NCBI GenBank assembly: GCA_000739535.1
Contig: DF820468.1
Coordinates: forward strand, 18,464 to 63,469
DNA length: 45,006 nucleotides
Reading direction: 5' to 3'
From: Candidatus Vecturithrix granuli
Lineage (GTDB): Bacteria; Moduliflexota; Moduliflexia; Moduliflexales; Moduliflexaceae
Below the pieces are notes generated by a model. The model searched no databases and was not told the origin of the DNA. It was given only the letters and a program-made list of their open reading frames with translations. The first letter of the stretch is position 1, and each line of letters starts with the position of its first letter. The translations under genes and the position numbers were made by a program. Of the stretch, positions 17,971-29,130 are shown piece by piece.

Positions 17971-18795
17971 TTAAAACCGTTGCCGTAGTTTTTGCTGCAA
18001 CTCTGGCGACAAGCCTAATTGTTCAACTTCTTCGCGCAGCATTTCAGCCGATCCGTCTCCGGCCAGATACCCGTTCACCCGCGCAGCTGCGGTAGAATTG
18101 ATAAAATCACTCATGTTTGGGTACATAGCCTTAAATTCCCGCATGAATTCCCGCTGATTTTGCAGTACGTATTTCTGGTGATAATCTTCCGCCAGATAAA
18201 ACTGCGTATAAGCGGCGATCTCTGTATGGATTTTCGCGCCGCGCTGCGCTTCTTGACGCGCTTTTGTCGTTTGCGCGAGGCGCTGCTGTTCCTCATTGTG
18301 ATAAAAGATCGCTGACATATACTGCCGCGACCACGATGGATACGTCGGATTATGGCTCTTCCAAAACACATCTAACAACTCTTCATAGCTGATCTGGGTC
18401 GGATCATAATCAATTTCAATCGTTTCCGCATGATCACCCAGAGCGTAATAGGTTGGATTGGCTTTGGTTCCGCCAGCATAACCGACGCGAGTACGCACGA
18501 CTCCCTTGATGCTCCCAAACTGGGCATCTGGTCCCCAGAATCAGCCCAGGGCAAAAGTCGCTGTTTGCGTCTGTGTCGGGACCGCCAGATCAATCGGCGG
18601 TTTTGTGTGTTCAGCAGCGTTCGCTGCTTGTGCAATTCTCATAATGTGTATCTCCTTTGTCGTATCAGGATAAAAGGCGTCCGAACTGCCGAATGTCACT
18701 GTTGACAGACTTGCCGTTCCGAGAAACAGGAACGCCAGAATTCCTGTCAGCAAAACCGTCCGCAACGGTCGCCTTTCAGTGTGTTGTGTTTGCAT
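17971..18795 (-). CDS. msrA: Peptide methionine sulfoxide reductase A, probable selenoprotein (UGA = Sec85)
   Basis: Read through one TGA, this is a 274-residue MsrA that reduces methionine-S-sulfoxide. The frame before the TGA ends ATFALG and after it continues FWGPDAQFG, so the UGA (18543-18541) takes the place of Cys in the catalytic GCFWG motif. The rest is intact: RVGYAGGTKANPTYYALGDH, AETIEIDYDPTQISYEEL, FWKSHNPT, YLAEDYHQKY. The protein contains no cysteine, so neither a normal catalytic nor a resolving Cys exists. Residues 13-32 are hydrophobic, so the long form is exported or anchored. A second ATG at 18642 (residue 52) has AAAGGAG upstream and would give a cytoplasmic form. A nonsense mutation of TGC/TGT is the alternative. 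Confidence 0.8.
18508..18528 (-). promoter_or_regulatory. Candidate bacterial SECIS hairpin
   Basis: Thirteen to 33 nt after the UGA, GATGC pairs with GCATC around CCA/TGG and a GTT loop, with a 2-nt GA bulge. Position fits bacterial SECIS elements, which sit inside the coding region just after the UGA. An alternative CTGGG/CCCAG stem overlaps it. No energy calculation was possible. Confidence 0.45.
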
Positions 18796-19148
18796 AATGG
18801 ATATCCTCTTCCCTCATCCTTGACTTCAATCGTGTTGACTTCAGCAGATCGCCAGTATCCTTGTTAGCAGAAAAAGCGGGATGGAAGCCAGCGATCCTTC
18901 AATCAACAATATTGCAGTGCAGTGTTGAGGTTATTCATAAATAGTATTTATACTTATTTATCATCTTTATCTAACTATTATGATCGGGTTTTCGAAAGTC
19001 AAGGAGAGAAATTGTTGTATTTTTGATCCTGAAGAGACCTGCATCTCCTCAGAGTGTATTCAGAGTTCTTCAATTCTGATCGTATTTTTTCATCTCGACC
19101 TCGCAATTTTTCTTGACATAGTTTGGGTATCAAACAATAAATGCACAC
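18796..19148. promoter_or_regulatory. Divergent upstream region of msrA and the MarR gene
   Basis: About 350 AT-rich bases separate the divergent genes. On the plus strand TTGACA (19113-19118) and AATAAA (19136-19141), spaced 17 bp, make a plausible promoter with the palindrome GTTTG-GGTAT-CAAAC filling the spacer. The predicted transcription start falls at or next to the MarR ATG at 19149, and no ribosome site is seen. The rest shows no gene. Confidence 0.5.
19121..19135. promoter_or_regulatory. MarR-type operator (first copy)
   Basis: GTTTGGGTATCAAAC: 5-bp arms with a 5-nt centre, between the -35 and -10 of the MarR promoter. The same palindrome recurs at 19801-19815. Confidence 0.6.
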
Positions 19149-19622
19149 ATGGAACGACAACAACAGTACATGCAATTGATAGAAACGTTATTCCGGGTGA
19201 TTAACAAATTCTACGCCCTTGAGAAAATTCCGAGAGATTATGGAGTCGGAGAAAATTTTTATCGCCAGGAAATTCATGCTATCGCTGTAATTGGTAATCA
19301 TCCTGACATCAATGTCATGCAGCTAGCAGAGCAGCTTGGCGTGACAAAGGGCACGATTTCGCCGGTCGTCACAAAACTGGAAAAACGCGGCTATGTCAGT
19401 AAATTGAAGGGCGGCGAGAGCAATAAAGAGATTTTACTGCGCCTGACCATCAAAGGGCAGATGGCGTATCATGGACACGAGATGTTTCATCTCAAACTTC
19501 ACGCCGAGCTGTTTGAGGAATTTGACCGAGAAAATCCTGAGCATATCGAGTTCTTGAAGCGATTTTTACAGGTTGGAGAACATCTGGTAGATAAATATCT
19601 GCAAACAGATGAGAAGTTGTAA
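19149..19622 (+). CDS. MarR-family transcriptional regulator
   Basis: A 157-residue winged-helix regulator. The helix-turn-helix and wing run from about 52 to 105 (DINVMQLAEQLGVTKGTISP, then VVTKLEKRGYVSKLKG, then NKEILLRLTIKGQ), flanked by helices for dimerisation. An operator-like palindrome overlaps its own promoter and an identical-pattern palindrome precedes the RND exporter gene downstream, so it most likely represses itself and the exporter until a ligand binds. The ATG at 19149 may be translated leaderless; the ATG at 19170 is an alternative. Confidence 0.85.
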   Translation: MERQQQYMQLIETLFRVINKFYALEKIPRDYGVGENFYRQEIHAIAVIGNHPDINVMQLAEQLGVTKGTISPVVTKLEKRGYVSKLKGGESNKEILLRLTIKGQMAYHGHEMFHLKLHAELFEEFDRENPEHIEFLKRFLQVGEHLVDKYLQTDEKL

Positions 19623-27929: not shown

Positions 27930-29130
27930 CTAGAATAAAGGGAAAACCAGTAAGATTGCGGATGTACCTGGGAAGATCTGCAAAGAAATCTCTAACGACG
28001 AGACCAGAGCTCTATGGCAAACATTGCACCTCCTCGAAATACATGCGTTGCCTAACGATGGCATGAAGCCGGTATGCCATGTGACGGCGCGATACATCCC
28101 CCTCACAGAGAGGCCAAGGAAATGGCCAGGAAATACCTTTGAGGTCATCTAACCAGCCTGAATCCGAAAGGTGCAGGGGAAAGCAGCATGTTGGAAAAGC
28201 GGAGAACAGCAGAAGTAAGGGTATGAGGGGGTTCCGCAAGACCTGATGCCAATGGTGAAAACTGAATTGCTTGAATCCCACGAACTAGTGGGGTCATCCA
28301 CGGGGAGACCCGCAAGGTCACGGAGACCCAATAGGAGTCAGCTTACAGGGCGAAGTTGGTCAGGTAGGGGGTCTCAAATATGATGAAAGACGCATGGCTC
28401 AGAAATATTTAGAGATAGTGAGGCAGAAAGGTGAAAGACGGAAGACGTTACGAAAGGTCTATCGAAACATCAGAAATGGTGAATTATTCCTGATGGCGTA
28501 CGGAAAATTATACGCCAATAAGGGGGCAGCCACAAAAGGAACGGTTAAAACGGATACGGTAGATGGCATATCATTAGCGAGAATAGAGACCATTATCGGT
28601 GACCTGAAAAATGGCATGTACAAGTGGAAACCAGCGAGAAGAACACATATTCCAAAATCAGACAGGAAAATTAGCCCACTGGGAATGCCGTGTTGGAGTG
28701 ACAAACTGGTTCAGGAAGTCCTAAAAATGGTCATGGAAGCGTATTACGAACCGATGTTCAGAGAAAGTTCCCATGTATTCCGTCCCAACAGAGGCTGTCA
28801 CACAGCCCTTTCAACGATCTGCAAACAATGGCGTGGAACAAAATGATTCATCGAAGGTGACATCAAAGGCTGCTTTGAGAAGATTGACCATGAGGTCTTG
28901 TTACGGATAATCGGCAAAAGGATAGAAGATGAACGCCTCCTCAAGTTGCTAAGGGACATGTTAAAAGCCGGATATATGGAAGATTGGAAATATCATGGAA
29001 CATATTCCGAAACACCTCAAGGGGGGATAATTAGCCCTCTCCTGGCAAACATCATCCTGAATGAATTCGACGAATACGTTGAGGATGTGTTACTTCCCAA
29101 ACATACAAGGGGCGCGGGAAATCTGGTGGT
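27930..29130 (+). mobile_element. Group II intron, degenerate and 3'-truncated
   Basis: The 460 bases before the reverse transcriptase frame are non-coding, structured and purine-rich, as expected for intron RNA domains I-IV; the frame itself encodes a maturase-type reverse transcriptase. Domain V and the 3' end are absent because the element stops at about 29125, where unrelated sequence begins. I could not find a GUGYG 5' boundary, so the left limit is approximate. Confidence 0.6.
28394..29125 (+). pseudogene. Group II intron reverse transcriptase/maturase, broken
   Basis: Conserved blocks are DTVDGISLARIETIIGDLKN, SPLGMPCWSDKLVQEVLKMV, SHVFRPNRGCHTALSTI, FIEGDIKGCFEKIDHEVLL and TPQGGIISPLLANIILNEFD. 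A TGA (28844-28846) interrupts the frame at ...RGTK-stop-FIEGDI, where the family has Trp (TGG to TGA). The YADD catalytic region and maturase domain are lost by truncation after LLPKHTRG. Inactive. Confidence 0.85.

Follow-up and report, generated by a model that had tools for sequence, protein, structure and literature searches.

A Probable Sec-Containing MsrA of the Clostridium oremlandii Type

Reviews count the GUFWG-bearing form of MsrA among the established selenoproteins of bacteria (PMC13188914; PMC9312934), and Sec-MsrA has been counted in marine metagenomes (PMC2398784). The MsrA of Clostridium oremlandii (PDB 4LWJ, 4U66, 7C13) has been described as natively Sec-containing (PMC4333827); it contains Sec but lacks Cys, exceeds its Cys version 20-fold in activity, and works with glutaredoxin, not thioredoxin (PMC4333827; PMC4479559). 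The stretch of DNA analyzed here (the window; 45,006 nucleotides from Candidatus Vecturithrix granuli) carries an msrA gene that we read, with a probability of about 0.95, as a functional gene for a 1-Sec MsrA of the C. oremlandii type, in which UGA would be translated as Sec by a system whose SelB, although absent from the assembly, should exist in the organism. The central features are as follows.

17971–18795, minus strand: msrA, 274 codons with one in-frame TGA; its own stop codon lies at 17973–17971
18541–18543, minus strand: catalytic-site TGA (residue 85), interpreted as Sec from the frame and from the same TGA in eight relatives
17974–18156, minus strand: C-terminal helical domain, residues 214–274, corresponding to C. 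oremlandii residues 145–209 (phmmer alignment; domain borders from PMC4333827)

The first-pass annotation had suggested alignment with known Sec-MsrA proteins, and the best PDB matches of the window protein are all the C. oremlandii selenoprotein. The phmmer alignment places window residues 77–267 onto C. oremlandii residues 8–198, taking in both the active site and the C-terminal helical domain; it reaches residue 267 and at the sequence level covers the region of that domain. Glu124 of the window protein aligns with Glu55, which donates the proton in the C. oremlandii enzyme. The two share UGA at the catalytic position in GUFWG, the lack of a resolving Cys, the catalytic Glu, and the helical domain that is absent from other MsrAs. 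They differ in that the C. oremlandii protein (209 aa) has no N-terminal hydrophobic extension, whereas the window protein has one together with a candidate internal start, and the two organisms belong to different bacterial lineages. By description, the window protein also resembles predicted bacterial Sec-MsrAs such as MBI4965933.1 in its catalytic Sec and GUFWG motif (PMC13188914; PMC9312934). Ordinary 2-Cys and 3-Cys MsrAs, such as that of E. coli and the second one encoded in the same genome (L001), share the MsrA catalytic domain, but they contain other Cys residues besides a catalytic Cys, have no helical domain, and fall in a separate clade. The first-pass annotation had missed that a 1-Cys-type MsrA with a C-terminal helical domain is already characterized. 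The Sec-MsrA type is therefore already known, and the window adds a little-studied bacterial lineage to its clade.

The In-Frame UGA and Its Conservation

Read from 18795 to 17971 on the minus strand, the 274-codon frame contains a single internal stop, a TGA, in the context ...TQTATFALG-TGA-FWGPDAQFGSIKGVVRTRVGYAGG... (codon 85 of 274, 18543–18541). The first-pass annotation had placed this stop exactly at the catalytic Cys of MsrA, and the G-TGA-FWG context bears this out. Its further observation, that 189 codons after the TGA stay open with the conserved MsrA residues kept and without any cysteine, also holds on reading the frame: there are no Cys codons among the 274, and hence no resolving cysteine. 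Pfam PMSR matches the window protein with 154 bits, spanning the TGA. As had been foreseen for automated annotation, a standard ORF caller cuts msrA in two, giving an 84-aa ORF (18541–18795) and a false 175-aa ORF with a GTG start (17971–18498), and the present reading corrects an annotation that would yield two false proteins.

Relatives were collected by a scan of one genome per species in 84,980 species, which detects close relatives only and gave 30 MsrA loci, and further MsrA loci came from a search of 115 genomes. Ordinary MsrAs read at the catalytic codon have TGC or TGT. The codon is TGA in eight divergent relatives, from Desulfomonile (L023; 62% identical to the window protein), Deltaproteobacteria (L024), Nitrospiraceae (L025), the Olavius Delta 4 symbiont (L027), Alkalihalobacillus deserti (L031), G001 (L091), G038 (L093), and G019 (L094); G001 is the nearest genome of the same family as the window genome. 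Conservation of the UGA in related genomes, proposed earlier as a check, is thus found, and because the same codon is TGA in relatives of different lineages, its presence at codon 85 is not a matter of chance. Closely related Cys forms come from Halanaerobium (L026, L028, L029) and Sporosarcina (L030, L032), and L124 is a further one. A tree built from 26 proteins groups the window protein with C. oremlandii MsrA, all eight TGA forms, and six Cys forms in one clade with 100/100 support. The Sec/Cys label requires four changes on this tree, and Sec and Cys have therefore been exchanged more than once. A search of the phylum of G038 added one member to the clade, a Cys form. Residues invariant across the clade, among them Glu124, are retained in the window protein; Tyr116, taken as the catalytic Tyr of the C. 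oremlandii type, is likewise invariant in the clade.

A pseudogene or a sequencing error, with a nonsense change at the catalytic Cys codon of a Cys-MsrA, would explain why the frame is broken by a stop codon, and the genome does have a second, Cys-containing MsrA. We consider this exceedingly improbable, given the shared TGA in divergent relatives, the 189 open codons with their conserved residues, and the Sec genes present in the genome (see below). The first-pass annotation had allowed for relatives with TGC or TGT combined with disabling mutations in the window copy; what we found is TGA in relatives, and no other disabling change was seen in msrA. Tryptophan at the catalytic position of MsrA could not perform the reaction, and reading of the msrA UGA as Trp was rejected on this ground.

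A SECIS-Like Hairpin Downstream of the UGA

The published model of the bacterial SECIS asks for a loop of 3–9 nt with a G within the first two loop positions, at 16–37 nt from the UGA. The msrA transcript has a hairpin that agrees with it.

18508–18528, minus strand: SECIS-like hairpin; the loop AGUUUG begins 19 nt after the UGA, fitting the model; p = 0.11 when taken alone

Hairpin strength was compared with that of synonymous recodings of the same peptide. A first version of this test permitted non-canonical closing pairs, and it was redone without them to give the p values reported here. Jointly, the nine Sec genes have a stronger hairpin than expected (Fisher p = 2.6e-5), a combined value that is optimistic since the genes are related by descent and the test went through one refinement, whereas in eleven Cys genes the hairpin is not stronger than expected (p = 0.97). 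By itself, the hairpin of the window msrA is not significant in the recoding test (p = 0.11). A SECIS-like hairpin 3′ of the TGA is accordingly found in TGA relatives and not in Cys relatives.

Selenocysteine Machinery of the Genome

The genome assembly that contains the window comprises 8.38 Mb in 21 contigs, with an estimated completeness of 93.8% and a contamination estimate of 10.75%. The first-pass annotation had proposed a search for selA, selB, selD, and tRNA-Sec. Three of these are present, namely selA (631 bits), selD (383 bits, on the same contig as msrA), and a tRNA-Sec with a UCA anticodon, but SelB was not found in the assembly by two profile searches and one protein search. Matches to TIGR00475 were rejected as SelB, being EF-Tu, IF-2, a CysN-like protein, TypA, LepA, and EF-G on reading of the sequences, and the PF09107 profile gave nothing above its cut-off in this genome. 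SelB is present in G001, G002, and G003, and G001 carries both selB and the UGA-MsrA. In G001, hppA, rplY, and ispE (named by reading their sequences) all flank selB on the same side, no farther than about 9 kb from it; all three went undetected in the window genome, while pyrB, which sits on the opposite flank of selB in G001, was found. Because these neighbors are missing together with selB, the absence points to a single assembly gap, although ispE or rplY could be too divergent to detect.

The missing SelB could also mean that the organism lacks it, with a decaying selenium system that no longer reads the msrA UGA. This is very unlikely in our view: loss of hppA, rplY, and ispE alongside selB is what one gap would give in an assembly of this estimated completeness, and selA, tRNA-Sec, and the UGA-containing selD are intact. 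The selD gene (L021; G000:C16:161214-162149, minus strand) has an in-frame TGA near its start, LTTAAG-TGA-AAKMD, and selD is likely a second selenoprotein gene of this genome.

On the contig of msrA, at about 163 kb of G000:C16 (L097:11009-11105, minus strand), there is also a tRNA of 97 nt, scoring 58 bits as tRNA-Sec yet bearing the Cys anticodon GCA. It lies upstream of selD, with yedF on one side and, on the other, a small ORF that precedes a selenocysteine-lyase-like cysteine desulfurase. This tRNA resembles selC* tRNA-Cys, known from other bacteria in forms whose anticodon is UCA (PMC7609411). A suppressor tRNA of such a kind, adjoining selD, might read UGA as Cys and so produce an ordinary 1-Cys MsrA, but the anticodon here, GCA, reads UGC and UGU, not UGA; the UCA anticodon belongs to the separate tRNA-Sec, and the msrA UGA is followed by a SECIS-like hairpin. 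We therefore give Cys decoding a negligible probability. The earlier proposal of Sec insertion yielding a one-selenol enzyme is supported, and the protein matches the known 1-Cys type; Sec incorporation at this UGA is what we infer from these comparisons.

Proposed Mechanism

If the msrA UGA is read as Sec, tRNA-Sec(UCA), made with SelA and SelD, would decode it, delivered by a SelB presumed present in the cell and directed by the hairpin, which starts about 12 nt after the UGA. The selenol would then attack methionine-S-sulfoxide, and Glu124, corresponding to Glu55 of the C. oremlandii enzyme, would donate a proton. Because the window protein has no resolving Cys, the oxidized Sec would need an external thiol for its regeneration, most likely a glutaredoxin.

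N-Terminal Segment and a Candidate Internal Start

Ahead of the catalytic domain, the window protein has an N-terminal extension with the following features.

18793–18795, minus strand: upstream ATG, start of the long form, preceded by GAGG at 18808–18805 in the sequence
18697–18753, minus strand: N-terminal hydrophobic segment LLTGILAFLFLGTASLSTV (19 residues, hydropathy 1.9), predicted to serve either as a membrane anchor or as an export signal
18652–18658, minus strand: Shine-Dalgarno-like AAAGGAG before the internal ATG, seen in the sequence
18640–18642, minus strand: internal in-frame ATG, 33 codons upstream of the Sec codon and a candidate start for a cytosolic form

Judging from its predicted segment, the long form is probably either anchored in the membrane or exported. 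Similar hydrophobic segments occur in the seven other non-Firmicute Sec forms, so that the members of the Sec clade found outside Firmicutes carry a hydrophobic export segment. Once exported, a selenoenzyme that lacks a resolving Cys would have to be reduced by something outside the cytoplasm; inspection by eye around the Sec-MsrA genes showed no conserved neighbor able to supply one.

The internal ATG is positioned between the hydrophobic segment and the catalytic domain. Seven of the eight Sec forms with an export segment have an ATG 32–33 codons ahead of the UGA, in a linker otherwise variable in sequence, and an SD-like motif precedes an internal start in six of the eight (one of them a TTG at −38), compared with a frequency of 5.7% among the internal ATGs of these loci. 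In G001 (L091), the internal ATG has no SD and lies within the hydrophobic segment, and for these reasons it is unlikely to be a start. By inspection, no such internal start site is seen in those Cys forms that have an export segment (Halanaerobium, L124). The data in which the pattern was noticed also served to test it, and its test by synonymous recoding was not significant (p = 0.15). Among the titles listed by a literature search, none was a direct precedent for a bacterial MsrA with an internal start. We therefore put forward only tentatively, as a possibility somewhat short of even odds, that one gene with two in-frame starts gives both an exported or membrane-anchored and a cytosolic Sec-MsrA; this arrangement would then be one that the Sec forms of several phyla have kept and that was not seen in Cys forms. 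If true, the conserved second start would make Sec-MsrA dual-located.

Genomic Surroundings and Additional Observations

In the window, msrA stands alone. It is divergent from a MarR-type regulator gene (19149–19622), which precedes an MMPL-type transporter, and on its 3′ side it is convergent with an M20-type peptidase gene. Rfam at gathering thresholds gave no family in the window, and no tRNA was found in it. Elsewhere in the window, at 28844 on the plus strand, an in-frame TGA was identified by eye inside an apparent reverse transcriptase (WRGTK-TGA-FIEGDIKGCFEKIDHE), which is probably a broken copy.

Some observations concern related proteins. In Alkalihalobacillus deserti (L031:5070-6666, plus strand), a second MsrA-like ORF directly follows the UGA-MsrA and has His at the catalytic position (FAGGHFWFM). 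The Halanaerobium Cys forms (L026:5049-6143, L028:5049-6146, L029:295-1389) have an N-terminal hydrophobic segment and are extended at the C terminus by a long stretch whose sequence looks like that of an MsrB domain. Finally, NCBIfam NF041383 (VPGUxxT thioredoxin-like selenoprotein, type 2) matches residues 73–204 of the window protein (P0001), the MsrA domain, with 44 bits against a cut-off of 275, and this family may contain an MsrA-derived domain.
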